Assembly (NCBI GenBank): GCA_030068145.1
Contig: JAPJBO010000047.1
Location: forward strand, 186,001-250,000
Length of the DNA: 64,000 nucleotides
Reading direction: 5' to 3'
Source: Diplonema papillatum
Lineage: Eukaryota > Euglenozoa > Diplonemea > Diplonemida > Diplonemidae
The notes below the pieces were generated by a model. That model did not search any database. It had not been told where the DNA came from and was given only the letters and a program-made list of their open reading frames with translations. Below, one piece after another: positions 11,137 through 58,463 of this stretch. Each line of letters opens with the position of its first letter. The stretch's first letter is position 1. Made by a program: the position numbers and the translations under genes.

Positions 11137-11151
11137 CTGGGGAACGACGGG

Positions 11152-16692: not shown

Positions 16693-16794
16693 CCGCGCCG
16701 TCGGCGATGCAGATTATCGCCACAGATTCTTTGCATTCTAACCCAAAATATTACACTCGATCACGCTCGATCAGGGGGTAGGTGAATTGGCTCA

Positions 16795-39590: not shown

Positions 39591-39723
39591 GTATAAGCAC
39601 CTGCTTTGTAGGAAATACTTGAGGAGGCTGCCAGCTGCAAAATATCAAAGGAGGTCATTGTGCAAGTAGCCCACACGAAACACAGGTGAATCTGGGTTCA
39701 GTGGCGGGCGTAAGCGTTCAACA
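39591..39723 (+). repeat. 130-bp dispersed repeat, copy 2
   Basis: Same order of blocks as 30511-30642, here followed by GTGCATCGACC instead of the 290-bp repeat. This fixes the shared right edge at about GCGTTCAACAA. Confidence 0.8.
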
Positions 39724-40054
39724 AGTGCATCGACCTGCCTGCTGCTGTCAATCACAGTCTACCAGGGGTCTATCACGCCGGGGAGTGGACGGGCTCAGTG
39801 AGCTAACTCTGACTCAAGCTTTTGTTTCGCCTATACGGCCCGTTCGGACGCAGAGCCGGTTTCGTTGACCGCACTACCCTGAGCCCAGATCCTGGACGTG
39901 GTTTCAGGTGGCAAATTGGCAAGTGATCGTGAGCAGAAGGTCCTACTCGGGCGGTTCAGTTTCCTCACACGTTGCATGTGGCTAAACAAAAAAAAAAAAA
40001 AAAAAACACAAAACGAAGTTCGTCAGGGGAACTCTGTGGGGGTTGGGAAAGGGT

Positions 40055-43000
40055 ATGGCCCGTGATGGGTCGTGTGGTGATGATACACGGTCAGCCCCCG
40101 ACAGCCGAGATGAGAAAGACGACGGCTACGACGAAGACGATGAAGGGGACGACGACGACGAGTTCGCGAAGCTGACGCCGATGGAGGGCGTGTTCCTCAA
40201 AGGAATCGAAGAGCGCCGCTTCGCCCTCACGATGCGCTCGTCCCTGGGCGGCAGCTACGCGCGCATGCTGAAGACGGCCGACCTGACCCCCGAAGGGGAA
40301 GACCTGTACCCGCCGGGATCCCCGGCTTCCTCAGTGAACACGCCGGCCAACTGCCGCAAGCGCGGCGCCCCGCTGGCCTCGGTGGTGAACCACCTGAACC
40401 TGCACGGCGACGACGCGCACACGGTGCTGCACCTGGCCCCGACGCTCCGCATTTTCTTGGAGACCGCGCCCGTCGTAGCAGATGGGGGACACACCTCCGT
40501 AATGGACCAGGCGCTGCCAGTCGTCGTGCGGCTGATCGACAAACACGGCGGATCCGACGACGCGAACGATGCGGTGGCGGAACTATTCAAGTGCCTTGTG
40601 GTCATCCACAGTCGCAGCGACACCCGGACGTCTGAGGCGGAGATGAATGCTGCTATGAAGGTGCTGGCGGGCGGGACGTCGAACACCAGCCCCGGGTTTG
40701 CGCGGGTGATGGCGAACGCCATCGAGCTCGTGAATCTCAGCGCGGACGACGTGTCGACGGACGTCGCGATCCGACTCACGAAAAACACGCTCCGGCGCAT
40801 TCCCTTCGCGCAGGTCTGCGAGTACCAAGCGATCCTGTCCCTGCTCGAGCGGTTCCTCCTCGACGACGCCGTGATCCAATGCGTGCTCCCCTCCATACAC
40901 TACATCTTAGACGCAGTCAGCCCTCTGCCCAAACAGCGCGGCAGGTCCGGCAGCATCGTTCAATCCCAGAGGTTGTACTCTTCCCCCTCCTTCCGTCAAA
41001 GCACGCCGGCCCCCGAGTTTCTGGGGACCCCTGCGCTGTGCGAGGCGTATGCGAGCTTGCTGAGCCAGATTCTCGCCGAGGATTCGGTGCTTTCGCATTT
41101 GACCGGCGGCGGGCCGATGCTGGCGAGCCTCGCCTCGTTCACGTGCGGCGGAACGCCCGACAAGCGCAACATCCGACCGCAGAGCGAAGCCGGCTGGATG
41201 GAAGCGTCGGAAAGCGACGCCGGCCTCAGCGCGCTGCTGAAGGCCTCTCCCGAGAGGCTGCGGAGCCTCGACGACCACGACGACGCTCGCCCGGACACAA
41301 CCATCAACACCGTCGTCCACAACGGCAGCCTCGACACCACCGTCCACGACAAAGACGAGCCGCCGCCGGGTGAGGCGGACAAGCCGGCCCCGGACAAGCC
41401 GGCGGATGGTGAAGGGGAGGCGGACGAGGCGAAGAGGCACGAGACGAGGGAGTTCGGCGATTTTGACCCCCAGTCGACGCAGCCCGTGGGGGACCAGATC
41501 GCGCGGGCGCAGATGGAGTTCCGGGACCGGCGGCCGACCACCGCAACCAGCGGGTTCTCGGACGACGGAATGAGCGGGAGCCGCCGGATCGCGGAGGTCC
41601 TCGTCACCGTATTCGACCAAGCGATGCACCACGCCGAGCAGGCGTCGGCGCCCGACCCCCACGACGTCACGTGCACTGGCCTGCGGATCATCGTCAACGA
41701 CGACGCAGCCCTCGGCAGCAGCCTCGCCGCAAAGCGAGAGCCCGGCGGCGTCGTCGCCGTGCCTGCGCCCCCGAAACCCCCCGGTATGCCTCCGCTGTCT
41801 CCGAAGAGAGCTCCCCCGCAGCCCCAGCCTCAGCAACCGCAGCCGCAGGCTGGCCGGGAAGCGGAGGTGACCGGGGACCTGGCGGTGGTCCGTGTGTTGG
41901 AGGCTATGCGCAACGCGATGCAGGCGCCCGGCGTGACCGAGGAGCTGGCCGCCAGGCGCATCGCGTTGAAGCTGGCGGTCGTGTTCGAGAAGCGTGAAGC
42001 CTTCTGCGATGAGGCCCTCGAGCTCGCGTGCAGCACGCTCGAGCACACGGCCAGCGCCGGGCACCCCGACCCCAGCAGCATCCCGTTCGCCTCGCTCGTC
42101 GCGTGCATCGACGCCCACCTGGCACCCCCCGTGAACGTGAAGATCGCGGCCGCCGCCCTCGCCCTGCTGCGGTCGCTGTGCTCCACCTCGTCGAACACCA
42201 GCCAAAAACACCTCCCGGCGGGCCCCGGGTGGGGGGTTGTGTTCGAAGCGACGGACGGCGGGGTCGTGTCGTCGCTGTGCACCGCGCTCACGCAGGAGCT
42301 GGACCCCGACTCGACCGAAATTTGCGGCGAGGCGCTGCTCCGCATCGCGAGTTTGCCGAAGGGGTTGATCGCGCTCTGCTCCGCGGGCCCGGCGGATTCG
42401 ATGGCGCACATCGTGCGCGCCCTCGGCGCCGCGGCGCCGCGCACGCTGTCCCTCCTCCTGCGGCTGCTCACCCTGGTGCTCACTGCAGCGGGGCCCGACA
42501 GGGCCCAGATCTTGACGTCTGCCGGTTTGGTGCCCGCGCTTCTCTCCCTCCTCAACAAGTCGTCTTTGTCCAACGCGCTGTCCGTTTCGTCGCTTTCGTT
42601 CTCGTCCCTGACTATGCCGCCGGTTGGGCAAGCCACCGGCTCGGTCTCCGTCCACTGCCTCTCGATCCTCCTGCAGCTGGTCCAGGCCAGCGACCGGTCC
42701 GTCGAGAACGACACGCTTTCGCTGACCCGCCCCCACCTCGCGGGGAAGGCCGCGAGCGAAGCGAGGCTGAAGGGCGCGGCGGCAGACGCCGCGGAGCCGG
42801 CGGAGGGTAGACCCGGGCAGGTCGAAAGCGTATCGGCATCGCCGACGTCGTCGGATGGGGTCGACCGGGTTGAGCTCGCCCTGCGGGAGGCGGAGAAGGC
42901 GCGGAACGCGCGCGACCCGCCGACGGCGGAGGCGTTGGTCGGGGGGGGAGCGCAGCGGGAGGCTGAGGACGACGACGCTCGCGCGGCGCTGACCGGGCAC

Positions 43001-46000
43001 GGCGCGCACTTCGTCGTGTTCGACCTCTTTCGGAATGCGACCGGCCCCGTCCAGCACCTCTCGGGGGCCATCCTCGCAAGCATCTGCGAAGGGTCGTCGG
43101 ACGTGCTCGCCGACGTGCTGAAGCGCGGCGGCGTCGAGTCCGTGTTCCAAGTCTGGGAAGGAAAACGCGGCGATATAGAACTCGGCCACGTGTGCGGGTA
43201 TCTGCTGGCCTGCCTCTCGCTGGGGGGCGACGAGGTCTGCGGGAACATCGCCGCGGGGGAGGACGGGGTCAGTTTGATCTCGGGTGCGTTCAAGTTTCCG
43301 TCCGTGTACCTGTCACGGTACCAGCGGATCTTCTGCGAAGAGCGGCATCGCGAGGTCATCAAGCACAAGAGCACGGTGCTCGACGTCGTCGACGAGTTGA
43401 AAAAGCAGCTCGAGGACGAAAAAAACAGGACCGTGTACCTAGGGGAGTGCCTTCCCATGCTCGTGCGGCAGGACTACGCTCTTGCCTTGCAGCACCTCGG
43501 CTCGTCTCTCTCGTTCGTGCAGCCGTACACAGAGATTCTCCGCGCCATCATCCAATCGGACATCATCACCGCTGTCGTCGCGCTTCTGGCCGCGGCGGAC
43601 GTGTGCAACACGCCGTGGGAGGACAGCGGGCACTTCCTGCCAGAGGACGCGATCGAATCGTCGACGTTCTCCTCCCTCCGCTCCTGCTGCGCCCTGCTGC
43701 TCCGCCACGAGTACACGGAGGCGCTCGCTTCGCTCGGGCCGAACCGCGCGGTCTTCTCCCGAGAGCGCGAACTCATCCTCCAAACCCTGCTGCCCGCTGC
43801 CGTCGTCGCCGCCGGGCTGATCACCGCCGCGGTTGCCATCGACCCAGGGGGGTCCGCCCCCGCCGTCTGCGAAGTCCCCGGTCCATCCAGCTCGGAAGCC
43901 GCCCAGCAGGACCTTGCTGGGGGTGAAGAACTCGCGGCGTTGAAGCGGTGCTGCCTGGCGCTCGCGAAGGGCGATCGCGAGGGCGCGCTGTGCAGCTTGG
44001 CGGACATCCCCGGGCTCCGGGACCAAAAAGACGAAATCTTCGCGGCCCTCGAGGCCGAAGGCGCCGCGGCTGCGCCTGTCCCCGCCACCTCACCCAGTCC
44101 AAAAGAAGCCACGCAGCTGGTTGGAGAGGGATCGGCCTCGGCAGAACTCGCGGCGTTGAAGCAGTGCTGCCGGTTGCTGGCGAAGGGCGACCGCGAGGCA
44201 GCGCTGCGCAGCTTGGCGGACACCGCCGGGCTGCGGGAGCAAAAAGACGAAATTCTCGCGGCCTTCGAGGCCGAAGGCGCACCGGCCGCCGGACCTGACG
44301 CGCTCGCCTCTCTCCGGTCCTGCTGCGTCCTCCTGCTCCGGCACGAGTACGCGGAGGCTCTAGCTTCCCTCGAATCGGACCGGGCGGCCTTCTCCGCAGA
44401 GCGTGAGCTCATCCTCCAAACTCTGCTCCCCGCCACCGTCGTTGCCGCTGGGCTGGCCACCGCAGCGGTCTCCGTCGACCCGGAGGGGTCTTTCCCCGCC
44501 ATCTGCGAAGTCCTCGACCCAGCCAGTCCAGAAGAAACCCCGGGGCTGGTCGGAGACGGGTCGGCCTCTGAGGAGCTCGCGGCGTTGAAGCAGTGCTGCC
44601 GGTCGCTGGCGAAGGGCGACCACGAGGGAGCGCTGCGCGGCCTGGCGGACGCCGCCGGGCTGCGGGAGCAATCAGACGAAATTTTGGCGGCTCTGGCCTC
44701 GCGGAGCGCCGTCGTCGCTGCGGTGTCGATGGCGGCCGGCGCCGGAAGTGCGGCGGAAGGCGATTCGGACGCGTTCAAACGGTGCTGCGAGTGCCTGGCC
44801 ATCGGTGAGACCGAGCAGGCGCTGCAGTGCTTGGACGACGCCGGGGGGCTGGGCGAGGAGAGGGACCGCATCGCGCGGCTGCTGGCCACTCGGACCGCCG
44901 CCGCGGTGGGGCAGGCCGCGCCATCGGCAGCTCCTCTGTTAGCGCGGTGCTGCCAGCACCTCGCGATCCACGAGCACGCGGAGGCCGCCGCCCTGCTGGG
45001 CACCGCCGCCGCCGACCCCAGCGTGCACGCGGCGCGCGCCGCCGTCACCCGCGCCAACACCGTATCCACCGCGGCCGCCGCCTCGCTGGTCGCGGCGGCC
45101 TGCGCGAGCGCCGCCACGGCGCAGGGCCCCCGGGCGGCGGCGGGGCCCCCCGCGAGGAAGGGAAGCGTGGTTCTGGATGAGAGGCTCCGGTCCGTGATGG
45201 CTGAGATGCAAGTGCTGCGGGACCAGCGGGAAAAAGTCGAGGAACGCCTGGCGGAAGCTGAGTCGGTGCTCAAAGCCGGCGGCGACCACACGAAGCGCGA
45301 CCTCGACGACACGAAGGAGCAGCTCAAGCGCGCCGTCGAAGACCGCCGCGACTCGCTCTCCGCGTTTTCGCAGCTCAAAATCGACTTTTCGACGTCGAAA
45401 GTCGCGGTCGAAAACGTCAAGCTCGAGAACGAAAAACTCGGCAAAGAGAAGGCCCGCTTGGAGGCCAAGCTGACGGAGACCGCCGGCAACCGGAGGGCGA
45501 AGGGCGAAGAGCCCCCGTCGCGCTACGAGAAGATGTACAAGCGCGAGAAAAAAAGAGCGGACGCGCTCGAGAAGGCGGCCCGAGACCCGATCGACCGCAA
45601 GCTCCACACCAGGCTCGAAGAAGAGAACGCCGTCCTCAGGGCCGAGGTGAAGCGGCTAGCCGGGTCGACGCTCGCCGAAGGCCGGCCGCGGCACGTCAAA
45701 AAGCAGCAGTTCCTGCCCGAAAACGACACGTCGCAGACCCCTTCGCCGGGGAACCCTCGGCACCCGCTCTCCAACCACTGGCCGCAGCGGGCGGGGTCTC
45801 TGACGGCGATCAACCTGCCGTCGCCAGCCGGCCAGCACAGGCACTCCCTCGGGCTGCAGTCGTACCACCAGCCCGACAAGCGCGCGTCCAGCCCCCTCCC
45901 GGAAGTCACGTCTCGAACCCCTCCGAGTTCGACACCCCAAGCCAACCTGGACAACACCGAGCTGGACGCGGGCGCTGTGCCCCACCCGCTCCCCTCTCCG

Positions 46001-46834
46001 AAGCTAAGCACCGCCTCCGATGCAGGCACGGCCCGCAGCTTTGCCGAGCCGGAATCCGACTTCCACTCGCCGCCGCTCGTTCTGCCGGAGGAAGACCCGC
46101 GGAATGCGAGCGGGTTCCTCGAAAAAAAGGTCGCCCGGCTCGAAGCGCGCATCGCGGCGTACGTGAAGGCCGCGCGCGTCTACGACAGCGCCGCCGCTGC
46201 CTTCCTCGAGCGGGCGTCGAAGGACCCGAAGACGGGCGCGAAGGACCTGCTGGCCGCGGTCGGCGCCTGCCCGCTCGCGAAGGCGGCCGCCGGGCCCCGC
46301 GGCGCCCCGGCGAGCCCCGGGTTGTCGTCGCTGTCGCCCCCGGTGGCCTCGGCCCCGCCGAGCTACCAGCGGTCGGACGCGCAGTGGGCGGACCTGGTCC
46401 GTTGGTGGCGCTCGGTGCAGGGCCGGCTCAAGCAGGTCGTGTTCCCGGTGGACTCTTTGCTCCACCAGGCGTCCGGGCCTGACCGCGACTCGACGTCTCC
46501 GGAGGCGTGCGTGCGGGAGTTGATAGGCTGCCTGCAGCGTGGCCCGCTCCAGGCCTCGGCGAACAGCGCGAAATTCGCGGGCCTCGCCGTCGGCAGCAAG
46601 CTCGACGCCGTGTGGGTCTGGTGGCTCGAGGTGATCCCCTTCTACAACCAAGCCTACGTCGCGATCCTCCAGCAGCGGCACGCCATCCTGCACTCCCTGT
46701 CGCAGGCCACCTCGGTCAACGCCGGCAGCAGCGCGCACAGGACCACTTCGCCGCATCCCCCCGCGACTGCTTCCGCGCAAAATGCTCGCAAGCGCCGCAC
46801 ACTTCCGAACCCCCTACTCGACGGTGAACGGTGA
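40055..46834 (+). CDS. Giant helical-repeat/coiled-coil protein A, tandem paralogue of 51931-58275
   Basis: A single uninterrupted frame of 2259 codons; family not recognised. ATG 40055 follows an in-frame TTG. It has an acidic N-terminus, then an alpha-helical solenoid at about 103-356 (VVRLIDKHGG, VAELFKCLVVIH), an acidic linker, and a second solenoid at about 513-876 (VLEAMRNAMQAPGVTEELAA). An armadillo-like block at 983-1090 (FDLFRNATGPVQHLSGAI, VCGYLLACLSL) follows. Residues about 1132-1686 carry eight repeats of the type L..CC..LA.GD...AL..LAD..GL..... Then come a long coiled coil (about 1704-1869), a Pro/Ser linker and a C-terminal domain (about 2016-2226; AARVYD, ACPLAKAA, a WW pair). 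All major blocks recur in the same order in protein B. A scaffold role is likely but inferred. Confidence 0.85.
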   Translation: MARDGSCGDDTRSAPDSRDEKDDGYDEDDEGDDDDEFAKLTPMEGVFLKGIEERRFALTMRSSLGGSYARMLKTADLTPEGEDLYPPGSPASSVNTPANCRKRGAPLASVVNHLNLHGDDAHTVLHLAPTLRIFLETAPVVADGGHTSVMDQALPVVVRLIDKHGGSDDANDAVAELFKCLVVIHSRSDTRTSEAEMNAAMKVLAGGTSNTSPGFARVMANAIELVNLSADDVSTDVAIRLTKNTLRRIPFAQVCEYQAILSLLERFLLDDAVIQCVLPSIHYILDAVSPLPKQRGRSGSIVQSQRLYSSPSFRQSTPAPEFLGTPALCEAYASLLSQILAEDSVLSHLTGGGPMLASLASFTCGGTPDKRNIRPQSEAGWMEASESDAGLSALLKASPERLRSLDDHDDARPDTTINTVVHNGSLDTTVHDKDEPPPGEADKPAPDKPADGEGEADEAKRHETREFGDFDPQSTQPVGDQIARAQMEFRDRRPTTATSGFSDDGMSGSRRIAEVLVTVFDQAMHHAEQASAPDPHDVTCTGLRIIVNDDAALGSSLAAKREPGGVVAVPAPPKPPGMPPLSPKRAPPQPQPQQPQPQAGREAEVTGDLAVVRVLEAMRNAMQAPGVTEELAARRIALKLAVVFEKREAFCDEALELACSTLEHTASAGHPDPSSIPFASLVACIDAHLAPPVNVKIAAAALALLRSLCSTSSNTSQKHLPAGPGWGVVFEATDGGVVSSLCTALTQELDPDSTEICGEALLRIASLPKGLIALCSAGPADSMAHIVRALGAAAPRTLSLLLRLLTLVLTAAGPDRAQILTSAGLVPALLSLLNKSSLSNALSVSSLSFSSLTMPPVGQATGSVSVHCLSILLQLVQASDRSVENDTLSLTRPHLAGKAASEARLKGAAADAAEPAEGRPGQVESVSASPTSSDGVDRVELALREAEKARNARDPPTAEALVGGGAQREAEDDDARAALTGHGAHFVVFDLFRNATGPVQHLSGAILASICEGSSDVLADVLKRGGVESVFQVWEGKRGDIELGHVCGYLLACLSLGGDEVCGNIAAGEDGVSLISGAFKFPSVYLSRYQRIFCEERHREVIKHKSTVLDVVDELKKQLEDEKNRTVYLGECLPMLVRQDYALALQHLGSSLSFVQPYTEILRAIIQSDIITAVVALLAAADVCNTPWEDSGHFLPEDAIESSTFSSLRSCCALLLRHEYTEALASLGPNRAVFSRERELILQTLLPAAVVAAGLITAAVAIDPGGSAPAVCEVPGPSSSEAAQQDLAGGEELAALKRCCLALAKGDREGALCSLADIPGLRDQKDEIFAALEAEGAAAAPVPATSPSPKEATQLVGEGSASAELAALKQCCRLLAKGDREAALRSLADTAGLREQKDEILAAFEAEGAPAAGPDALASLRSCCVLLLRHEYAEALASLESDRAAFSAERELILQTLLPATVVAAGLATAAVSVDPEGSFPAICEVLDPASPEETPGLVGDGSASEELAALKQCCRSLAKGDHEGALRGLADAAGLREQSDEILAALASRSAVVAAVSMAAGAGSAAEGDSDAFKRCCECLAIGETEQALQCLDDAGGLGEERDRIARLLATRTAAAVGQAAPSAAPLLARCCQHLAIHEHAEAAALLGTAAADPSVHAARAAVTRANTVSTAAAASLVAAACASAATAQGPRAAAGPPARKGSVVLDERLRSVMAEMQVLRDQREKVEERLAEAESVLKAGGDHTKRDLDDTKEQLKRAVEDRRDSLSAFSQLKIDFSTSKVAVENVKLENEKLGKEKARLEAKLTETAGNRRAKGEEPPSRYEKMYKREKKRADALEKAARDPIDRKLHTRLEEENAVLRAEVKRLAGSTLAEGRPRHVKKQQFLPENDTSQTPSPGNPRHPLSNHWPQRAGSLTAINLPSPAGQHRHSLGLQSYHQPDKRASSPLPEVTSRTPPSSTPQANLDNTELDAGAVPHPLPSPKLSTASDAGTARSFAEPESDFHSPPLVLPEEDPRNASGFLEKKVARLEARIAAYVKAARVYDSAAAAFLERASKDPKTGAKDLLAAVGACPLAKAAAGPRGAPASPGLSSLSPPVASAPPSYQRSDAQWADLVRWWRSVQGRLKQVVFPVDSLLHQASGPDRDSTSPEACVRELIGCLQRGPLQASANSAKFAGLAVGSKLDAVWVWWLEVIPFYNQAYVAILQQRHAILHSLSQATSVNAGSSAHRTTSPHPPATASAQNARKRRTLPNPLLDGER
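43447..45115 (+). repeat. Eight tandem double-Cys protein repeats in protein A
   Basis: Copies start near 43447, 43676, 43935, 44151, 44315, 44580, 44770 and 44935. Two subtypes alternate: RSCCxLLLRHEYxEALASL with a long helical tail, and LKxCCRxLAKGDxExALRxL. Copies 2-3 and 5-6 are most alike at DNA level, pointing to duplication of a two-repeat unit. Protein B has only about three degenerate versions (from 55300). The expansion is therefore specific to protein A or lost in B. Confidence 0.8.
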
Positions 46835-48103
46835 GCACCGCTGTCGTCTCAGACCCCGCGCGGGTTGGTTCCGTTCCTTCTCTCGCTGGTTCCCGGATCT
46901 GACACGTATAGCTACAAATGCTCGCATACGGGAGTAGCTCGCTTGCATGCAGCTCGGGCCGTAGCAGCGCATTGCCTGATCGCAGCAGACGCTTGATGTG
47001 GGCCAACTTTTCTGAAGAGATTGGCCTTTCGAAGCCTTGCTGTGGGCCAACTTTTCGGAAGGGACTGGCCTTTCAAATCTCAAAGCCTTGATGTGGGCCA
47101 ACTTTTCTGAAGAGACTGACCTTTCGAAGTCTTGCTGTGGGCCAACTTTTCTGAAGGGACTAAGCCTTGATGTGGGCCAATATTTCTGAAGCGACTGGCC
47201 TTTAGAAGCCTTGATGTGGGCCAGCTTGCTGCCGCTAGCATGGAACCTGCCGCCGCTAGCTGACGCTAGCTCGGAACCTGCCGCCGCTAGCTGCCGCTAG
47301 CTCGGTGGGTACGTGTTCGTACCAGACGCCTCCTCAACAAAACCTGACCACCGCACGCACGGTCGATGCGCACATTAGGCAGGAGCAAACAAGAAGATAT
47401 CATGCTTCCTTTTTCTTTGTGCGGCGTGCTGGGGAAGTGCCGGAAGCCGTCACAGAGACGAAACTGTAAAAAGACCGACTAATATGCACAAGTCTGGATG
47501 CATGGCCAGGGCAACAGGGCTTGACCTACTGTGCTTAGTGTGCTCGAAAAAAGGCGAAATAGAAACAAGCTGCGCAACCCGGAAACCCTCGAGGTCACAA
47601 AACACCGGTCGGGTCTCTCTTGCTAACAAGCATTTTGACAGCTTGAAACGGAAAATGCATGAAGAAAAGTTCGGAGTTTAGTTTTTACGAGTCGACAGGG
47701 AGCTTCACACGGGGTCGCAATTCAGAGCTGTTGTTTCCCAACTTTCAGCCCCGAAATTGCAATCACGGGAACAGCAAACTGCCGAAGAAAGGAAAGAAAA
47801 AAGCAAACAAACAAACAACCAAACAAACAAACCTGAAATTTTGTTTCAGTGTTTCGTCATCTTCCCTTGAACTGCAAAGCACTCGCTGTGACTGTGGGTC
47901 CAGATCTTGTGTTGCTGTACCAAGGCAAAACGGAAACAGCAGACCCCCCGGGGATAGCTTCCCCGGGCGGGGCTGGGCTGGCAGATTTTGCTGCGGCTGG
48001 CGCGTAGTTGTGAAGCACGTCGCCAAAAACCTTCTTCGCAAACAAAAGAAAAAAGGTCGGAAGACCGTGATCAGTGTCTTCTCTCACGGGGGGGGGGGGG
48101 ATG
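46835..48103. other. Intergenic region 46.8-48.1 kb
   Basis: No gene recognised. It contains six imperfect 42-50-bp units (CTTGATGTGGGCCAACTTTT) at 46990-47222. About three 33-bp GCTAGC-rich units follow at 47222-47305, then AAAC-rich simple sequence near 47795-47830 and a G13 run at 48088-48100. Confidence 0.6.
46990..47305. repeat. Two adjacent short tandem repeats
   Basis: Units of TGTGGGCCAACTTTTCTGAA plus ACTGGCCTTTCGAAG make up 46990-47222. They lead directly into GCCGCTAGCTGCCGCTAGCT-type units up to 47305. Non-coding. Confidence 0.85.
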
Positions 48104-48233
48104 CACGACGCACTTGTCATGCACAATTACTTGTTATATAACAAGTGACCTAACAAGTGAAAATGTATAACAAGTGCCACTTGTTATATAACAAGCAATC
48201 ACTTGTTATATAACAAGTGATCACTTGTTATAT

Positions 48234-49015
48234 CAGTCATTCTCCTGGCGGCCGTTCAAATATGGAAGAAACCACCTGGAGGTCAACCCCTCGTCATTTT
48301 CTTTGGTCCGAGGGCGTTTTTGAACTGTTTTGAGTCCGATCTTTTCATTCCGACCCTCGGTGGGCTCCGAAGCTCGATATTGACGGGCTTAAGCCCAAAA
48401 TTAGGTTTTACGAAAAACGCATTCTCGTGTTTTGCCATCGAGGGGGTCGCCAGTTTTTCTGTAGCACCCCGGGAACAGAGTTCCCAGGCATGCTCCGGAT
48501 TAAAACCATCTTTGATTGACCAAATTAGAGGCGGGGATGGTGGGTGTATGGGCTGCAACAGCTTTTCCCTGTGGCACCGTACTATACCACAAGGGGCACC
48601 ACGAGGGCCTAGCACCCTGTGGGCTCAGTGCCCGCCATCCCAGTTCTGAAGTGCGTTCATAGGGTGATGGTAATTAGCCTGGTGAAGTGGGGTGCAACAG
48701 GAGGGTCATGGGGGTCAACCTTTTGTGTGATCCGAGGTGGTATTTTGACGATTTCGTGACCGATCTTTCCATTCCGTGTCTTCTCGGGAGCAACAGGCAC
48801 GTATCACACGCGCCCCCGGTATAATCTAAGTATAATTATATCGGGCCGAACTTGTCCAAGGGGGGTCGTCATTTTTTTCTAAAACCCCGGGAACAGAGAG
48901 ACCAGGGACACCTGCGCTCATAGCATCAAAGATTGGTCGATTTAGTGACACCTTTGGTGACTGTATGCGCTGCAATAGGATGGTCATTTTTGAACGGTCG
49001 CCAGGAGAATGACTG
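48234..49015. mobile_element. 782-bp TIR element inserted in an ACTTGTTATATAACAAGTG palindrome
   Basis: The ends are 30-bp inverted repeats beginning CAGTCATTCTCCTGGC, with two mismatches (48234-48263 and 48986-49015). The flanks are CTTGTTATAT on the left and ATATAACAAG on the right. Removing the element and one ATAT restores the palindrome exactly. Target duplication is ATAT, or TA if the ends start TCAG. The interior is an imperfect head-to-tail dimer (about 48270-48640 and 48700-48985, both with CCCCGGGAACAGAG). Non-autonomous. Confidence 0.85.
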
Positions 49016-49095
49016 ATATAACAAGTGATTGCTTGTTATAACAAGTGTTTGGCTGCAATTTCATAAGGAACCTGGGGTTTGTACCTACCTACGCC

Positions 49096-50102
49096 TACCT
49101 ACGAGAGAAAATCACGTGATCTGCAAGACACAAGGCTCCACCTGGTCCAGACAAAAATATCGGGGAGTTTCGGGGAAATTCGGGGAGTTTCGGGGTATTT
49201 CCTTTGTGGCGACCACTTTCCCTGCAGCCGGCCTTGGCGATGGCGGGGAGGGGGCTACGCTATTACGGCCCTACCTTGCGCAGAGCGGTCCCGTGTTTGG
49301 TTATGCCCCGAAGACGAAGATAGAGGCTGAGAAGGAAGGACAGACTGGGAGGACGCCCGAACCGACACCGAAGTCGAGACGCAAGCTGCGACCATCAGCC
49401 CAAAGCGCCACAACGGAAGCGGCGGATGCCGGCGCCAACACCGCCATCGAGAACGCCGCAGAAGGCGACGACACTAGGACGGCCGCTGCAACGAAGCGGC
49501 GGCGTAAGGACTCGCCATCATCGAAGACAGAGGTGCGAGATAAGGTGCCAGTGACGAAGAGAGGTAGCACGAAGAGGTAGTCACGAAAGAGAGCAGATGC
49601 AGATTATCGCCATGTACGGACCTTGGACTTTTCTGGCATCTGGGTGGGATATTATGGTCCCCTGAGTGCTTTTCTTGCCAGTGGGGGTAATTCTCGGGCT
49701 TCAGGAAGGCGTAACGGTAACAGTCAATCTCGCTCCCCGAAATAGGCAAAACCCCCTGATTTCGTTGACAGGCCGAAAACCCTCCTTTTTTGGCTTTGGT
49801 GCAAATACGCAGTTCCGCAGCTTTTTGGCCGTAAATTCGGTGTCATGCCGCAGTGGAGGTGATGTGCAATACCCGGAGTACAGTCACCGCCTTGGGCGAA
49901 AATGTCAAAAAACACGAAATCACGCTCGTTTGGCTGGGCCGTGGTACCCGGCTCGGGGTTTCTCACACGACAAGAAACTTCGACCCACAGAAAAACTCCG
50001 AATGAGCGGTTCGGGTGCGCAAATGCCAAGCGTGCTTACAGCAACCGTTTGTTTGCCCAAAGCCTAGTGTCTTGCAGATCACGTGACTTTCTCTCGTAGG
50101 TA
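49096..50102. mobile_element. 1.0-kb TIR element carrying a LINE tail
   Basis: The 42-bp inverted ends begin TACCTACGAGAGAAA and continue TCACGTGATCTGCAAGACAC, with two mismatches (49096-49137 and 50061-50102). It lies between copies of the ACTTGTTATATAACAAGTG palindrome. Positions about 49220-49610 look like the end of a LINE ORF2. No transposase is recognised. Confidence 0.8.
49220..49610 (+). pseudogene. Diverged LINE ORF2 tail
   Basis: An open frame ending at 49580 encodes a Lys/Arg/Ala/Thr-rich tail (RTAAATKRRRKDSPSSKT, then TKRGSTKR). This resembles the basic end of the LINE ORF2 at 16.6 kb. Shortly after the stop, GCAGATGCAGATTATCGCCA matches the LINE 3' UTR (GATGCAGATTATCGCCA at about 16705). 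It is a related but distinct subfamily, 5'-truncated. Confidence 0.5.
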
Positions 50103-50250
50103 CAATCACTAAACATATATTATATATCAAGTGATTGCTTGTTATATAACAAGTGATCATTTGTTATATAACAAGTGACCACTTGTTACATCACTTGTTA
50201 GAAATATAACTAGTTATGTCCCAAAAAAAACAGCTAACAAGTGCGTCGTG

Positions 50251-51930
50251 TGGGGATGCAGTCTTGTTAAGGCAGAATCCTGTGCTTTTGTCGTGGATAG
50301 CTTGGAACTGGTTCGGGAACGCATGGGTGGGATAGTCATATTACTGTACACTGCTCGTCCCTCTCGATCGACGACGCGCAGCACGAAAAGACGACGCTAG
50401 CTTCAAACCACTTCTGCCGGTAGAGAGACCCTGCCTCGAAGGAATCAACCGCCTTCAGGTGGGCTCGTCGCTGTCGTTGGGGAAAAACAAAAGAAATTGC
50501 GACTTACGGAAGCGGAGTCCGCTGATCCTGCTTTGTACCCTCGTTCACCCACGATTCGTTGAAAAGCGAAGTTCGTTTAGTAATTCTCGAAACGACCGCG
50601 GCCATTTTCAGATGGGGCATTCGGTGCCAGCAGCTCACAGAAGAGACCGACCTCAAGGCACACCGATGCCCTTGAAGTGAAAACCGAGCATGCTTGCTCG
50701 ATCCCAAGCCCGCCGACACGATCGGAATCACAACAAGATTTAGCCCTGCTAACTCCACATGTACTCGATCTTGCTGGGGCGGAGGCGGCTTCAAACACCT
50801 TCTCGAACCTGTTTTCACCATGTCCTGTCTGCCGGAGTGGCCACGCCAGATCCAGAGGGACAACGAACCCTTTTGTAGAATAAGCACTTGCTTTTCCGTG
50901 TGACACGAAACACAGATGAATCTGGGTCTCGTGCCGGGTGCAACACGCAGCAAGACCCATTCGTTTTTGCATTGTTTCTCCCCCTCTCTTTTCGCGGAAG
51001 ACGGTTGGCTCTAAAACAAAAGGAAAACATAAAGCATTCTCTTTTTTTCTATCTGTCAAGAGCTGCGACTCAACTATTCTGGCGCCGCATTCGGGGCTCA
51101 CACACTCTTCCCCTCTCAGCCCCGGTCGGGTTCGATTTCCTCCTTCCAGAGTTGGCCGGAGCTGCCTCTAGCCAGCAAACAAAGTGTCACCTATTCACAT
51201 CGTTTTCTTTGGTGAATTGTTCTGGCACGCAAAGAACACGCAACCAGACCCTTCAAAGCCTCTAGGCAAAACCCCGTTTTCACACTTCTTCAGTACACTA
51301 CATGATTTGGTTCCTTCACTCCAGCTTAACGCACGTTCCCGTTTTTACGCATGACCGGCAAAAGACTGACGCAGGAAGCCCCAGGCAGTCTCTATGTTAT
51401 GAATCCAAACAAGGCACTGTCGTACCAGTGAACCCATAGTCTTTGATTTCTCATTCGGAGAGTGCCGTGGGTGCCAAAATGACTTCCCTCGATCCTGAGA
51501 CGGCCTTGTTTACAGCAGTGGACTACGACGGTATCTGATCATCTTGGATCCCCACGCTCTCGTTCTTGATTAATGAAGACATTCTTGTCGAATGCTTTCG
51601 CAGAAGTTCGTCTTCCTACGATCTAAGAATTTCACCCCGGACGTAGGAGTACGTACGACCCCGCAGTATGCGACGTGTGGCAAGAGCGCCAGGTGTCACC
51701 AATTCCGCGGTATACGATTCACAACTAGGTCAACGACTAAATCGATCGGATTTGATCAAACTTGGCTTTATTTAACGGGGACTTGTTTTACCACCTACAC
51801 CTGTTTCAAAAGCGCACTCGGCAGGGAAAAAAGAGGGAAGAGGGGAGGAGGGGGGGTTTGAGGCTGGAAGCCATCCCGCCCGCGCGTCTCTCTCGGAGAG
51901 TGCGCGAGGCAGAAAACGTAGGAAACGAAG
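50251..51930. other. Intergenic region 50.25-51.93 kb
   Basis: No gene recognised. A diverged 130-bp repeat fragment lies at about 50880-50955 (GACACGAAACACAGATGAATC). Open frames on both strands at 50500-51265 overlap and lack domains. The last 120 bases (purine-rich, GAGGAGG) are likely promoter and 5' UTR of protein B. Confidence 0.5.
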
Positions 51931-54900
51931 ATGCGAGCCGAGGCGTCGGGAGAGGAGCACCCGCGGCTCGAAGCGGCGAAGCCGCCGATGCCGCCAATTG
52001 TCCTCCGGATCGAGTCCGGGGACGATGAGGACGACGACGAGGAGGAAGAAGACCAGGAGGTCAAGCCCTTCGACGACTTCTTTGCCCCGATGGCCTCGTC
52101 CCCGGCGTCCGACGCGTTTTCCCACGGCCCGCTCGGCTTCCACGGGAGCCCGGACCGCGGCCACGGGCCGTCTCCCCTGCGGATGCAGAGCCCTGATGCG
52201 CTCAGCATGCCGACGCTCAACTCCTCGTTCACGGAGCTGGCACTATTGACCGCGAGGAACAACCCCACGTCCGCCGTGGTTCACCTCAGGCAGTGCGGGG
52301 CCGACGACGTCGACGCCATTACGGAGGGTGCCGAAATGCTCCGGATATCCCTTGAAAGCGTGCAGAGTACTGCACCGTGCGAGCCCGGCGGCGAGGCGCC
52401 GGCGCGGCTGATGCAGGACGGCGGGCACGTCAAAAAGGCCATCAACGACCTGCTCGACCGGCACGGCCGCGAGCGCCCGAACATCGCCTCCGAGCTGTTC
52501 AAGTGCCTGGCGCTGCTTTACGAGAGCGGCACGATCTCGACAGTCCTGCTGTCCGACAAAGAAGTCGAACACGTGATGTATTACCTGCAGCGCCCCCACA
52601 CCGACGCCGCGCGCCCCCACGCGTGCGAAGTGGCCGTGCAGTACGTCATGTCCGGGAAGCTGTCGACGGAGACGTCCCTACGCATGGCAGACGCGCTGCT
52701 GCAGAGGCTGCCCGAAGCCAACGCGGTGAGCCTCCTCTTCTCGCTGCAGGCGCTGGAAGGCCTGCTGCTCGACGACACGGTGCTCGAAGCCAGCAAAAGC
52801 GACCTGCTGCAGGTTTTCAACGTCGTGCGGGCGCGCACGCCGAAGGAAGTCTCCTCGCTGTTCTCCGACACCTTCCTGCGGAGAGCCTACGCGAGCACGC
52901 TGGGCGGGATCCTGGCCGACGAGGCGCTGCTCAATGAGTTGGTATCCATCCCCCCTCCGGCATCGCCGAAGGCGAAGGCCGGAAAACCGACCAATGACGG
53001 GGCCTCCGACGTTTCATCGGACGCGGCGGAAGGCGGCGAGTCGGAGGAGGCAGTGGACTGCATCGTGGACTGTTTGAACAGGTTTCTCTTCGAAGTGGTC
53101 AAAGGCGCTGGACCGCATATGTCTATTGCTGCCCGTATGTCCATCGTCGCCGCCGTTGCAGTCGCCACGGCGGTGGCAGGGTGTGTCATGAAGCCCGTGT
53201 ACCGAAAAACGAGGATGGCGGCGGTGGTCAACCAGATACGACGGGACTCCGCGCAGTCGATGACCACGTTCCAGCCCGTGTCGGCGGCGCAGGCACCCCT
53301 CGACGCACCGCCGCCGCAAATCGAGCTCACGAGGGCCAGCTCGAACAACTTGACGGGGTCCCCGCGGTTTTCCCCCGCCTTCCGACCAATGGTCTCGGGG
53401 GCGCTTTCGATGGTGTCGTCGAACGCCGGCCTGCTGCAGCAAGACCTGGACTGCTCGGTCACAGGGCGCCGTCGAAGTCTGACGGGAACGCAGTCGCTCA
53501 TCCGCGTCATGACCGGGCTATCGCGCACCGCGCGCAGCCTGCGCGCGTTCACGACGAAGTGCGCCAAGGAGCAGGCGCTGCTGCACACGCTGGAGGCGGT
53601 GCGCAACGCGCTCGAAATCCCGGTCGTCAGAGACCGGCTCCGGCAGCGCAAGGCGTACGTCGCAGTGTCGGAGCTCCTGTCCTGCTGCACGCTTTGCCCG
53701 GAGGCCGCGGAGTTCTGCTCCGGGATTGTGTCTAAACTGACAGACGGCGCGTCTGCGCCGACTCAGCGGGTGAGCCGAGCGCTGGTTGACAGCATCATGA
53801 TCCATCAGTTCGACCGGAGTGTGCTGTGCTCGTCGGTGTCGTGCCTGCACGGCATCGCGTCCGACGACGCGAAAACACCGTGGTGGGGCGCGATCTTCGA
53901 GCACACCGACGGCCGCGTCCTCGAAGCGATCACGCTCGTCCTGATGCGGGTGAGGCTGCCGGAGATCTCGCTGCTCTGCGCCCGCGCGCTGCTCCGCCTC
54001 ACCTCGCTGCCGAAGGGCGCGAAGCAGCTCTTCAGGCTCGAGCCGCCGCTCGGCGTCAGCCCCATCGCCACCGTCGCGGCGGGCACCGCCGACGGGCCGT
54101 GCAGAAACGTGCTGCTCCGGATCCTCGAGGCCCTCAGCTCGAACTCGGGAAAAGACCGCGCCGAGACCTTGGTGATCCATTCGGTCGTCGGCGAGATGCT
54201 CAACCTCCTGAACCGAAGCAGCTCGGAAGACGCGACCGGCGGCGGTGACGACGTCGTGTGCTCGTGCCTGATCATCCTCAACAACATGCTGCTGTCGAGC
54301 GATCGACGGCAGGCTCCGGCGTATCCGGAGCAGCACTTGTCGATCACGTGCAGGAAGTCCGAGTCGTGCCCGTCGTCGCAGAGGCGCGACCTGGCGCGGT
54401 TGAAGTCGTCGTCGGCCCAGCCCGAAGCGGCGGACACGCCGCGCAGCGTCGACGACGACACCGACACCGTTGTGTGCTTGGACGCCTCGGACGCGCTTGC
54501 TGCTCTCCCGCCGACCAACGGCGCGGGCAACGACGACGACAGCAGCGGCGGGGTCACCAAGGGCAGCGCGAACAACAACAACAACAACAACAACAATAGC
54601 AACAACGCCAGCGCCGGCAACAACGACACTGGGCACCCTTTCGCTTCGACGGCGCCGGCGTACCGGGCGAAGCTCAGCCTGCCGCTGCCGCTGCTGCCGC
54701 TGCCGCTGCCGTCGCCGCTGAACTCGCCGAGCGGGCGGGACCTCGACGGCGGGCTGTTCCCCGTGTACTCGGAGAACACGCCCCGGTCGCCGCTCTCGCC
54801 GTACCTCGAGATGGCCGACCACTCGTTCACCCAGCGGAAGCCGGGCGTCGTCCGCGAAAAGCTGCTCGAGCTCGAAGCCCACACGACCCTCTTCGACCTC

Positions 54901-57900
54901 TTCCGCATGGCCACCGGCCGCACCCAGCACATGGCCGGCGTCCTCCTCGGTGGGATGGCGGAGGCGTCACACGACGTCAGGGAGGCGATATTGACCAACG
55001 GTGGGTTGAGCGCGATGTTTAAACTGATGGAAACTCACCGCGGTGATGTAGAGCTCAGCCACGCCTGCGGGTACCTCCTCGCCTGCTTGGCGCTGGAAGG
55101 TCCGGAGGTCTGTTCGGAGATCGCGAAGGAAGACGGCGGAGACGCGGTGATGAAGGCGGCGAAGTTTAAGTCCAGCCTCCTCACGGGCACGCAGCGGGCG
55201 CTGTGCTCGGAGCGGCACAAGGAAATCCTCAGCCGCAAGCCGTCTGTCGTGCACGAGGTCGAGCTGTTGAACGCTGAACTCGAAGCAACCCGGCAGCAGT
55301 GCAAGACGCTCGAGGCCTGCTTCACGCATTTGGTGCGCGACGATGCCCTCTCAGCGCTCTCCCTCCTCCGCAGCAGCACCGCCTTCGTCGACCAGCACGC
55401 CGCCATCCTCCGCGGGCTCATCCACGCCGAAATCGTCGCGGCCGTGCTCGCGGTCGCGGCAGCCTCCGCATCCCACCTGCCGGCACCCCCCCGCCCGGAC
55501 GCCCGGCTCTGCGAGTTCCTCCTGGAGCACGACTACCCCGCGGCGCTCGCCGAAGTCCGCGCGCACCCTGCGTTGAAGCGGCGGCACGGGGCTGCGGTCG
55601 CGAAGCGGTGGGCGGGTGCGGTCGCGCTGGCGGCCGGCGCCGCCGTCGCCAGCTGCGCGAGCAGCGGGCTGCCGCCGCCCGCCGCGCGCGAGGACGGCGG
55701 GCTCCGCGCGTTCTGCCGGCGGCTTGCCGCGGCGGCGCCCCGGCCGGCCGTCGACCGCGCCATCGAGGAGGTTCCCGAGCCGTCCCTCGCGCCCTTTTTC
55801 GAGTCGCTCCGCTCCCCGGCGGACGACGCAGCGGCAACTCCTCCTCCTCCTCCTCCAGCTGTTGCAGGGCATCAAGTTCAAACGACTGCACCTGCTGCCA
55901 CTCCGACTCCGGCAGCGTCCGGGCGCTGGTTCGAACACACCCGGGCCACCGCGCTGCACCGCCTGCGGGCAATCGGCGAGGGGTGGGATGGAAACCCGGG
56001 TGACCCGGCTCTGGCCGAAGACGTGCGCGAGGGCGTCCGCGCGTGGGAGGGCCTCGACCTGGAGGGGGCCGAAGGCCCCGAGACGCTGTGGGACGACGTG
56101 CGGCGGCTGGAAGCCGGCGTCAGCGACCTGCAGGCGCGGGCGGACGCGGCGCAGCGGAGCCCCGGCGGCGGCGGGGGGGCGTGGTTCGAGCATACCCGCG
56201 AAGCCGCGCTGCTCCGCCTGCGGGCTATCGGCCGGCGGTGGGACGGCTGCCGCGCGAAGCTCGAAGACCCGGCGCTGCCGGAGGACGTGCGCGCGGCCAC
56301 CCGCGCGTGGGAAAGCCTGGCGGCCGACGCCGACGGCTCCCGCGAGACAGCGCGCACGCTCGAAGAAGACGTGCGCAGCCTGCAAGCCCGCTCGGACACC
56401 GCCATCGACCACGCCGCCGCCGTCGCCGCCGAACAGGCCGCCCGGGCGCTGCGTGCGGCCAGCACACCCGACCCAACGACAGCGCCCGTCGTCACAGCCG
56501 CCGCAACCACCAGCCCTCAGACCCCCGAACAACGCCACTCGGACGCGGAATGGGTGCGTGCGCGGATGGCGGGGTGGGAAGGCAAAGGGCTCGACCTGGA
56601 CGACCTGCGCCGCGATGTCGGTTCTGCGGGTCCGGAAGACGGCGCCGGGCTGGTCAAGAAGTGGTGCGGCGTGCTCGAGCGCCGGCTTGCCGGCGGAGAC
56701 GCGGACCCGTGGGCCGCGGCCGCCGCGTCGGTGGCCGCCGAGGAGGCCGCAGCTCGCCAGCGCGACCAAGCCCTGCACCGCGTGGCGCTGCTCGAGGCCG
56801 AGACGGCCCGCCTGCGCGCCGAAGCCGATGCCCGCGCCTCCCCCGCGAAACCCGCACCGGGCCACCCGGCTCGGAAGACGGCGAGCCGGAAGCCTGCCGC
56901 ACACGTCGCGGGCAACGGGCGCAACGCGGTGAAATCTGCGAAGGTCGACCCCCCGCCCTCGTCCGCCGGCGAAGCGGACATCGACGTTCCGATCGTCGCG
57001 TTGGTCGGCGACGTGGACTACTTCAAGGGCAAGCTCGAAGGTGCGATCAACGTCATCTCCCAGCAGAGCCAGGAGATCGAAAAGCTCAAGCGCGGCCTCC
57101 GAGTCAAGCCGGCCGGGGCCAGACCAGCGGAGCGAACCGCCAACGCCTGGGGGAACACCGACCCGATCGACGAAGAAGAAGCGGAGCTGGAGGGATGGGT
57201 TTCCGAGCAAATCGAGCAAGACCGGCGCCTCGCCGAGAAGGACCGCGAGCTCGCCGCCCGACAGGCCGAGCTGGAGCGGTTGGCCACCGTGCTCGAGGCG
57301 AAGGAGGGCGAGCAGCAGAAGGTGCGGCACCTCTTCGAGGCGCGGGAAAAACGCCTCCGGAAGCTCGAAAAGCGCGCGCGGGCGCAGGACTCGGGGCTGG
57401 ACCCCGACGGGCAGGGCTCCGGCACACCCGACGCCGACGGCTCGCGCCCGCCGGCAACGCGGGAGGGGCTCGAGAGGCGGATCAAGCAGCTCACGGCGCA
57501 GCTGCAGGCCTTCGTGCAGGCGGCGCGCGTCTACGACCAGCCGTCAGCGACCGCGATCGCAAGCGCCCTCCGGGACGATAAGCTCGATCCCATCCGCGAC
57601 CTGATCCTCTCCTTCCGCGCCTGCCCCCTCTCCACCCCGCGTGCCCACGTCCGCAGGCAGACCCCCCCGTCCCTCCGCGGGCCGTCCCCCCTCCCCAGCG
57701 AGCACCCCACCCGCGACGCACGGGCGACCCGGGCAAAAGCGAAGGAGGCGCTGGCAGGGGTCTGGAAGTGGTGGAAACGGGTGGCGGCAACCCTGGACAG
57801 GATGCCGTGTGTCACCCCGCCTTGCGCCCCCGGCCCTGCGGTGTCGCCGACGGCGAAGCCGGTCGACTATGCGACGGGCGTGCGCGAGCTGGTGTGGGAG

Positions 57901-58275
57901 CTCCACCGGTGTCCTCTGTATCTGATAGGCGACAGAGTGTGCAAGACGGACGATCCGGAGCAGGTGCTGGCCGAAGTCTCGCAGTGGTGGGGCCCGGCGA
58001 GCGCCGTGTGGCAGCGGAGCTACGTGGCGTTCCTGCAGAAGCGGGCGGCGCTGCTTCATTCCCTCGTCAGCCTCACCGCGCAGGCGCCGCCGCCGCAGAA
58101 CCCGGGCGGCCGCGCCGCGGCGCCCGCGGCCTCCCCTCGCCCGCCTTCCGCGCCGAAGCCCGGCACCCGGAAGCAGACCCTCGATCCAAGCGACGACGTG
58201 TACTCCTTCGTATCGCGCCGCGAAGAGCGCACGGCAAAGCAGCGGGGGACCCTGCAAATTATGTACGGCGAGTGA
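51931..58275 (+). CDS. Giant helical-repeat/coiled-coil protein B, tandem paralogue of 40055-46834
   Basis: An intact frame of 2114 codons from ATG 51931; family not recognised. Block order follows protein A: N-terminal solenoid about 91-344 (INDLLDRHGRERPNIASELF), second solenoid about 544-791 (HTLEAVRNALEIPVVRDRL), an armadillo-like block about 977-1084 (FDLFRMATGRTQHMAGVL, ACGYLLACLAL), degenerate double-Cys-type repeats about 1124-1290, coiled coil about 1700-1824, and C-terminal domain about 1847-2050 (AARVYDQPSA, RACPLS). Features not in A are a hydrophobic stretch at 397-420 (MSIVAAVAVATAVAGCVM), an Asn run near 881-900, and two 80-residue repeats at 1331-1500 beginning WFEHTR and sharing ALLRLRAIG. 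It probably arose with A by tandem duplication. Function is unknown. Confidence 0.85.
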   Translation: MRAEASGEEHPRLEAAKPPMPPIVLRIESGDDEDDDEEEEDQEVKPFDDFFAPMASSPASDAFSHGPLGFHGSPDRGHGPSPLRMQSPDALSMPTLNSSFTELALLTARNNPTSAVVHLRQCGADDVDAITEGAEMLRISLESVQSTAPCEPGGEAPARLMQDGGHVKKAINDLLDRHGRERPNIASELFKCLALLYESGTISTVLLSDKEVEHVMYYLQRPHTDAARPHACEVAVQYVMSGKLSTETSLRMADALLQRLPEANAVSLLFSLQALEGLLLDDTVLEASKSDLLQVFNVVRARTPKEVSSLFSDTFLRRAYASTLGGILADEALLNELVSIPPPASPKAKAGKPTNDGASDVSSDAAEGGESEEAVDCIVDCLNRFLFEVVKGAGPHMSIAARMSIVAAVAVATAVAGCVMKPVYRKTRMAAVVNQIRRDSAQSMTTFQPVSAAQAPLDAPPPQIELTRASSNNLTGSPRFSPAFRPMVSGALSMVSSNAGLLQQDLDCSVTGRRRSLTGTQSLIRVMTGLSRTARSLRAFTTKCAKEQALLHTLEAVRNALEIPVVRDRLRQRKAYVAVSELLSCCTLCPEAAEFCSGIVSKLTDGASAPTQRVSRALVDSIMIHQFDRSVLCSSVSCLHGIASDDAKTPWWGAIFEHTDGRVLEAITLVLMRVRLPEISLLCARALLRLTSLPKGAKQLFRLEPPLGVSPIATVAAGTADGPCRNVLLRILEALSSNSGKDRAETLVIHSVVGEMLNLLNRSSSEDATGGGDDVVCSCLIILNNMLLSSDRRQAPAYPEQHLSITCRKSESCPSSQRRDLARLKSSSAQPEAADTPRSVDDDTDTVVCLDASDALAALPPTNGAGNDDDSSGGVTKGSANNNNNNNNNSNNASAGNNDTGHPFASTAPAYRAKLSLPLPLLPLPLPSPLNSPSGRDLDGGLFPVYSENTPRSPLSPYLEMADHSFTQRKPGVVREKLLELEAHTTLFDLFRMATGRTQHMAGVLLGGMAEASHDVREAILTNGGLSAMFKLMETHRGDVELSHACGYLLACLALEGPEVCSEIAKEDGGDAVMKAAKFKSSLLTGTQRALCSERHKEILSRKPSVVHEVELLNAELEATRQQCKTLEACFTHLVRDDALSALSLLRSSTAFVDQHAAILRGLIHAEIVAAVLAVAAASASHLPAPPRPDARLCEFLLEHDYPAALAEVRAHPALKRRHGAAVAKRWAGAVALAAGAAVASCASSGLPPPAAREDGGLRAFCRRLAAAAPRPAVDRAIEEVPEPSLAPFFESLRSPADDAAATPPPPPPAVAGHQVQTTAPAATPTPAASGRWFEHTRATALHRLRAIGEGWDGNPGDPALAEDVREGVRAWEGLDLEGAEGPETLWDDVRRLEAGVSDLQARADAAQRSPGGGGGAWFEHTREAALLRLRAIGRRWDGCRAKLEDPALPEDVRAATRAWESLAADADGSRETARTLEEDVRSLQARSDTAIDHAAAVAAEQAARALRAASTPDPTTAPVVTAAATTSPQTPEQRHSDAEWVRARMAGWEGKGLDLDDLRRDVGSAGPEDGAGLVKKWCGVLERRLAGGDADPWAAAAASVAAEEAAARQRDQALHRVALLEAETARLRAEADARASPAKPAPGHPARKTASRKPAAHVAGNGRNAVKSAKVDPPPSSAGEADIDVPIVALVGDVDYFKGKLEGAINVISQQSQEIEKLKRGLRVKPAGARPAERTANAWGNTDPIDEEEAELEGWVSEQIEQDRRLAEKDRELAARQAELERLATVLEAKEGEQQKVRHLFEAREKRLRKLEKRARAQDSGLDPDGQGSGTPDADGSRPPATREGLERRIKQLTAQLQAFVQAARVYDQPSATAIASALRDDKLDPIRDLILSFRACPLSTPRAHVRRQTPPSLRGPSPLPSEHPTRDARATRAKAKEALAGVWKWWKRVAATLDRMPCVTPPCAPGPAVSPTAKPVDYATGVRELVWELHRCPLYLIGDRVCKTDDPEQVLAEVSQWWGPASAVWQRSYVAFLQKRAALLHSLVSLTAQAPPPQNPGGRAAAPAASPRPPSAPKPGTRKQTLDPSDDVYSFVSRREERTAKQRGTLQIMYGE

Positions 58276-58317
58276 GAGGGAAAGAGAGAGAAAGGTGCGT
58301 CGACTGTTACTGTCACC

Positions 58318-58463
58318 AACAATCTTGCGGGTTGCCCTTCACTTGATTGTGCAGGCTAAAAAGACGGAGACAGCGTGTTCTGGTGGTTGATCAGAGTTCC
58401 TGACCTGAAAATGACACAGGGTAAATACAAGTGTGGGAAAACGATCAACCGGCACGCACAAAC
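58318..58463 (+). repeat. 150-bp dispersed repeat, copy 2
   Basis: Nearly full-length match to 27091-27243, starting 43 bases after the stop codon of protein B. It is therefore likely within that gene's 3' UTR or just beyond. Confidence 0.75.

Follow-up and report, generated by a model that had tools for sequence, protein, structure and literature searches.

Proteins of the SYCP2 type combine armadillo repeats and a PH domain with a C-terminal coiled coil, and KKT17/18 are described in the same source as recognised only by profile-profile search (PMC8131943). Two SYCP2 paralogs, DIPPA_35871 and DIPPA_35886, are reported for Paradiplonema papillatum (PMC11633173), and the account of the Diplonema papillatum genome gives about half of the predicted protein genes as lacking any indication of function (PMC10161547). 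Here we describe two neighbouring giant genes, A and B, in a 64-kb window of Diplonema papillatum DNA (contig JAPJBO010000047.1, positions 186,001 to 250,000; the window is the whole stretch analysed, and positions are counted from its first letter). A and B are a real, old orphan pair, but they belong to a common type of large protein with helical repeats and coiled coils; on their sequences they are outside the named families of the libraries searched (Pfam, NCBIfam, PHROGs and PDB).

Alignment of A with B by BLASTP gives four collinear blocks with 26–44% identity (Table 1), here called blocks 1 to 3 and the C-terminal domain. All four remain when low-complexity sequence is masked, although weaker overall (65.9 bits for block 1, 44.3 for block 2, which is shortened to A610-770, 155 for block 3 and 58.9 for the C-terminal domain). 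Against reversed B, phmmer listed no match to A, and the highest BLASTP score of A against 100 shuffles of B was 28.5 bits. With significant homology in the same order across their length, in these four blocks, A and B are members of one family. The original prediction of at least five shared blocks in the same order holds for the four that align collinearly and weakly for units rich in Cys and Leu, but not for the coiled-coil stretches, which are similarly placed in both proteins without significant alignment. The two frames, of 2259 and 2114 codons, were found where predicted, as uninterrupted neighbours lying head to tail, and as read from their open frames both genes appear intronless. The guanine-cytosine (GC) content at third codon positions (GC3) is 0.79–0.91 per 300-codon step in both, and GC content between and beside the genes is 50–60% in 2-kb steps.

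The duplication that had been proposed is supported by this collinearity together with the codon positions. Identity at codon positions 1, 2 and 3 is 0.52, 0.62 and 0.44 in block 3 (277 codons; shuffled third position 0.385), 0.44, 0.53 and 0.42 in block 2 (248 codons; 0.423), 0.44, 0.60 and 0.39 in block 1 (228 codons; 0.377), and 0.48, 0.55 and 0.44 in the C-terminal domain (236 codons; 0.398). Fourfold sites are identical at a frequency of 0.48 in block 3 (0.425 by chance, n=64), 0.50 in block 2 (0.45, n=48), 0.375 in block 1 (0.37, n=48) and 0.43 in the C-terminal domain (0.39, n=58). Since synonymous sites are at or slightly above chance while positions 1 and 2 are held, these values indicate that A and B were duplicated long ago and that both copies have been under purifying selection. 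A BLASTN comparison of positions 37401-49400 with 49401-61400 returned weak matches, short pieces of coding sequence and dispersed repeats, with no conserved flank. When the whole window was searched by tblastn with A and B (E up to 1e-3), each gene matched only itself and the other.

Table 1. Genes A and B, their parts and their alignments (A and B numbers are residues; positions are those of the window)
Feature	Residues	Positions	Strand	Basis
Gene A	2259 aa	40055..46834	+	single open frame, ATG 40055 to stop 46834; GC3 0.855
Gene B	2114 aa	51931..58275	+	single open frame, ATG 51931 to stop 58275; GC3 0.862
A block 1, acidic N-terminus and helical part	A24-354	40124..41116	+	phmmer A24-294/B30-306, BLASTP; helix moment z 2.8
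B block 1	B30-342	52018..52956	+	phmmer, BLASTP; helix moment z 1.8
Block 1 alignment	A103-354/B109-342			26%, 66 bits (BLASTP)
A block 2, helical, armadillo-like at A796-843	A608-881	41876..42697	+	alignment with B; armadillo-unit z 5.7
B block 2, helical	B547-792	53569..54306	+	alignment with A
Block 2 alignment	A610-881/B549-792			29%, 74 bits (BLASTP)
A block 3, armadillo-like, CGYLLACL	A977-1100	42983..43354	+	BLASTP, armadillo-unit scan, PDB profile search
B block 3, armadillo-like	B976-1098	54856..55224	+	BLASTP, armadillo-unit scan, PDB profile search
Block 3 alignment	A984-1170/B983-1168			44%, 155 bits (BLASTP)
A Cys/Leu helix-pair array, 8 units	A1128-1667	43436..45055	+	repeat model, leave-out tests
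B Cys/Leu helix-pair units, 2	B1127-1228	55309..55614	+	repeat model; second unit weak in leave-out test
B-only tandem WFEHTR repeat, 2 copies	B1331-1491	55921..56403	+	54-58% identity, longer between-copy matches
A coiled-coil region (limits by eye)	~A1701-1880	45155..45694	+	heptad score only at A1705-1741
B coiled-coil region (limits by eye)	~B1695-1859	57013..57507	+	heptad score at B1796-1824, B1842-1870
A C-terminal domain, AARVYD..CPL..WW..WW	A2013-2247	46091..46795	+	A-B alignment
B C-terminal domain	B1839-2082	57445..58176	+	A-B alignment
C-terminal domain alignment	A2022-2220/B1847-2050			31%, 70 bits (BLASTP)

By a modest margin of belief we read A and B as giant scaffolds or tethers that arose by an ancient duplication and are specific to the lineage of their host, a euglenozoan and perhaps diplonemid flagellate. 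We favour this reading because the collinear homology is far above chance and accompanied by signs of purifying selection, because armadillo peaks occur in block 3 of both proteins and designed armadillo proteins match there, because the helix moment is raised and the beta moment lowered in all eight conserved stretches, with coiled-coil signals before the C-terminal domain, and because no enzyme model reaches its Pfam cut-off in either protein. In such a scaffold the coiled coil would oligomerise each chain, the armadillo-like face and the Cys/Leu helix-pair array would both hold partners, and the C-terminal domain would serve as the anchor of the chain, so that the paralogs could span long distances and link partners of the cytoskeleton or of membranes; the difference in repeat number would determine how far they reach or how many partners they take.

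The armadillo-like character is clearest in block 3. A scan with the repeat unit of designed armadillo proteins peaks there independently in the two proteins (A991-1038, z 6.6; B1006-1053, z 7.1), in keeping with the predicted armadillo-like block bearing CGYLLACL, and block 2 of A has a further peak at A796-843 (z 5.7), while block 2 of B has no window above z 3. Searched against PDB, the profile of the A and B block 3 sequences matched two designed armadillo proteins, OR497 (E 1.2e-10) and OR329 (E 2.3e-06), and the block 2 profile gave a weak match to importin-alpha (E 0.23); in block 2 of A the Pfam Arm model scored just 9.7 bits, its cut-off being 20.6. Block 3 of both A and B thus appears armadillo-like, though weakly per repeat. 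The four blocks also look helical: in eight of eight stretches the helix moment is above that of local shuffles (z 1.2 to 3.0) and the beta moment below it (z -0.6 to -2.3). This periodicity is consistent with the two putative helical solenoids originally predicted. Homology of block 1 to block 2 and of block 2 to block 3 was considered and rejected (hhalign probability 0.1% and 0.2%).

Several observations weigh against a scaffold built of armadillo and other helical repeats. The armadillo scan puts 13 of 148 windows above z 3 in A and 5 of 138 in B, yet the reversed proteins still give 8 of 148 and 1 of 138. The OR497 E-value is the sum of seven tandem copies, the best single one scoring 12.5 bits, and that of OR329 the sum of five, the best at 13.6 bits with an i-Evalue of 0.25. 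Three of four linkers have helix moments near zero (z -0.1, 0.7 and -0.7), but the linker B345-545 reaches z 3.1, so that the helix-moment test separates blocks from linkers uncleanly; nor is the moment raised in the Cys/Leu region (A 1.3, B -0.4) or in the coiled coil of A (0.9). The Cys/Leu unit, finally, matched no family in Pfam and no consistent chain in PDB, where the best match was a cytochrome P450 (E 0.018).

The counts of eight Cys/Leu helix-pair units in A and two in B come from a repeat model trained on these same ten units; neither this inequality nor the WFEHTR repeat private to B (Table 1) was among the original predictions. A model built from seven A units only gave 10.0 bits for B1129-1162, where 50 shuffled B sequences reached 5.3 at best; B1194-1219 scored 4.6 bits, under that shuffled value, and A1135-1162 scored 1.3. 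Conversely, the model built from the two B units found A1210-1227 (6.8), A1132-1166 (5.2) and A1422-1442 (5.0), with a shuffled best of -0.8. Because these tests uphold B1129-1162 and A1210-1227, with B1194-1219 a weak candidate, a shared Cys/Leu element is supported but weak; the two helix-pair units common to A and B resemble each other (hhalign 69%, E 4.3e-05, one comparison). Within A there are long near-duplications, of A1218-1320 to A1430-1535 (66%) and of A1348-1400 to A1491-1543 (77%), so the A array probably grew longer or was homogenised once the two genes had separated. Compared without gaps, the first pair of copies differs by 20 silent and 20 replacing changes over 77 codons, the second by 6 and 13 over 56; the near-duplicated repeats of A are under no strong constraint.

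Heptad signals were sought with a thresholded score of our own construction, with 20 shuffles of each protein as the control; 20 windows in A and 23 in B exceed the threshold (shuffle means 1.4 and 0.25, maxima 10 and 2). In A they fall at A1705-1741 and A2020-2056, in B at B1451-1501, B1796-1824 and B1842-1870, and weak matches to SMC coiled coils cover A1709-1844 (E 0.58) and B1742-1859 (E 0.5). Since the AARVYD motif lies inside A2020-2056 and B1842-1870, in both proteins the C-terminal domain, which is Trp-rich and conserved between A and B, with two WW motifs, seems to continue directly from a short coiled coil. An internal duplication of this domain, considered from the recurring WW, was rejected, because no more than 17 columns of its two halves could be aligned (hhalign probability 8%).

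No model of Pfam or NCBIfam reaches its curated cut-off in A or B, and neither library holds a strong full-length match to a described family. Whole A gave nothing in Pfam up to E 1, and whole B gave two matches under their cut-offs, one ZER1-like (12.5 bits against 27) and the other unspecific (12 bits against 28.4). Ten block sequences were also compared with Pfam, with matches listed up to E 10, a range in which the HMMER filters drop most matches above 0.1. Every match was below its curated cut-off: ELYS (0.0015) and HemY_N (5.9) in the A Cys/Leu region, ZER1-like (0.0077) in B block 3, TPR_CCP1_N (0.025) in B block 2, CATRA-N (0.023) and SNAP (0.074) in the A C-terminal domain, MCPVI (0.028) in that of B, Topo-V_HhH (0.12) in A block 1 and Arm (1.2) in A block 2. 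Because no two of these agree between A and B, we name none of these families; several are helical-repeat families, which fits proteins of helical repeats. PHROGs, which has no cut-off, returned one uncharacterised match in the coiled-coil part (B1748-1796, E 0.0013). Single-sequence PDB searches gave nothing below E 0.089 for A or 0.59 for B, and PDB profile searches with block 1 and the C-terminal domain nothing below E 0.49. Apart from the designed armadillo proteins at block 3, the PHROGs and PDB matches are weak and helical or coiled-coil. No relatives appeared in scans of viral contigs with B itself and the block 3 and C-terminal alignments, or of prokaryotic genomes with the latter two, both of which start from short peptides and carry little weight for eukaryotes, nor by tblastn of B against phages, a non-eukaryotic collection of equally little weight. 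A literature search by subject words, not gene number, found no title or abstract opening that describes the pair. The claim of an unrecognised family therefore stands with respect to Pfam, NCBIfam, PHROGs and PDB, and leaves room for a remote known family.

A bolder version of the scaffold reading, which we hold to be rather unlikely, is that A and B found a giant scaffold family specific to Euglenozoa or diplonemids, whose C-terminal helical domain (AARVYD..CPL..WW, with recurring WW) would be new. In this family the helix-pair array of one paralog would have grown from about two to eight units, yielding matched adaptors of different reach that would form hetero-oligomers in a lineage-specific cell structure. 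If the family were so confined, it would offer a handle on one of the large cell structures peculiar to the lineage, and the pair would show repeat-number change in a giant adaptor after duplication; otherwise A and B are one orphan pair in a kind of genome where many genes have no functional clue.

A fragment of a eukaryotic 18S ribosomal RNA (rRNA) gene is found just upstream of, and antisense to, gene B (51432-51938, minus strand, Rfam 153.7 bits, model positions 626-1112), its conserved part ending near 51790 by eye, short of gene B; its sequence appears euglenozoan, and it is perhaps a dispersed rRNA piece. The published account of Diplonema papillatum (PMC10161547) describes about 3600 scattered 28S rRNA gene pieces, introns in about 41% of genes, LINE-like (long interspersed nuclear element) sequences and repeats beside gene ends. 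Degenerate tandem repeats of 44 and 31 bp (46992-47305) follow shortly past the end of gene A, and palindromic 22-bp repeats of the type CACTTGTTATATAACAAGTGAT lie in both orientations between the genes (48104-50250). An element of about 145 bp stands on either side of the pair in the same orientation (39580-39724 and 60280-60424, 95% identical), with a third copy at 30507-30644 and a 36-nt partial match between the genes (50903-50938). Further away, a LINE-type element spans about 8770-16748 (limits guessed), with an endonuclease and reverse transcriptase frame at 11152-16692; near the end of this frame, 16529-16748 has an inverted copy downstream of gene B (59434-59653, 94% complementary). 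A 143-bp satellite array of about 22 copies occupies 4029-7137, about three more copies lie just past the LINE frame (16797-17232), and two 21-bp repeat arrays (19608-19771 and 21052-21280), about 1.3 kb apart, repeat one another in inverted orientation. Another ten frames of the window, only two of them on the minus strand, were compared with Pfam; the four above cut-off, all on the plus strand, are a GT15 mannosyltransferase, a LINE polyprotein, a poly(A)-polymerase-like frame and an ion-channel gene.

Among more specific readings, the one that survives best would make A and B structural proteins of the euglenozoan cytoskeleton or flagellum (axoneme, attachment zone or feeding apparatus), which gives the favoured scaffold a place and not another mechanism. 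Euglenozoan cytoskeletal and flagellar structures are built by large proteins with repeats and coiled coils, and the feeding apparatus of diplonemids is elaborate; this background speaks for such a place, but we regard it as doubtful. Against it, a 2015 search of the T. brucei genome is reported to have found three proteins with armadillo repeats, of which two had been characterised before (PMC4406125). A direct counterpart of A and B in kinetoplastids is therefore not evident.

A special case of tethering, that A and B are true homologues of p115/Uso1 or golgin-like membrane tethers, with an armadillo head and a coiled-coil rod, seems improbable. The order of armadillo-like part and then coiled coil recurs in A and B, and p115 is the only PDB match of B with E below 1 (E 0.59, B673-794); that match is not significant, however, A has no p115 match up to E 1, p115 is missing for the A and B block 2 profile to E 5, and no p115 model appears in Pfam, results that concern sequence and allow for remote homology. 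Moreover, p115 is about half as long as A or B and has no such C-terminal domain.

Less probable still, A and B might be divergent SYCP2-type (KKT17/18-like) axial-element or kinetochore paralogs, with armadillo, PH and coiled-coil parts. They do have an armadillo-like block and coiled-coil signals, and an SYCP2 paralog pair is known from Paradiplonema papillatum (PMC11633173). Yet neither a PH nor an SYCP2 Pfam model was listed for the ten blocks to E 10 or the whole proteins to E 1, within the filter limit given above, beta moments in the conserved blocks are under those of shuffles, and beyond the coiled coil lies a conserved domain of about 200 aa. These sequence tests leave room for remote homology, and KKT17/18 themselves were recognised only by profile-profile search. 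The numbers DIPPA_35871 and DIPPA_35886 are 15 apart whereas A and B are neighbours, though numbering may not follow position. That the frames are spurious or decaying is scarcely credible: chance frames do get longer in GC-rich DNA, and the same DNA holds antisense frames of up to 760 aa, but 2259 and 2114 codons run without a stop, A and B are homologous in the same frame, and codon positions 1 and 2 are kept while third and fourfold sites are near chance.

Compared with known systems, A and B, as putative scaffold or tether proteins, appear to share with p115/Uso1 a helical head followed by a coiled coil, but differ in lacking a significant sequence match, in their much greater length and in the conserved domain after the coiled coil. 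With SYCP2 and KKT17-KKT18 they share an armadillo-like part, coiled-coil signals and occurrence as paralog pairs in Euglenozoa; no PH domain was found in A and B, and the Cys/Leu array and the domain after the coiled coil are extra. In comparison to armadillo proteins (designed ones, importin alpha and the ZER1-like domain), no model passes its Pfam cut-off and long low-complexity linkers separate the blocks, and about two units are seen in block 3 and one in block 2 of A; the likeness lies in block 3 of both A and B and in part of A block 2.

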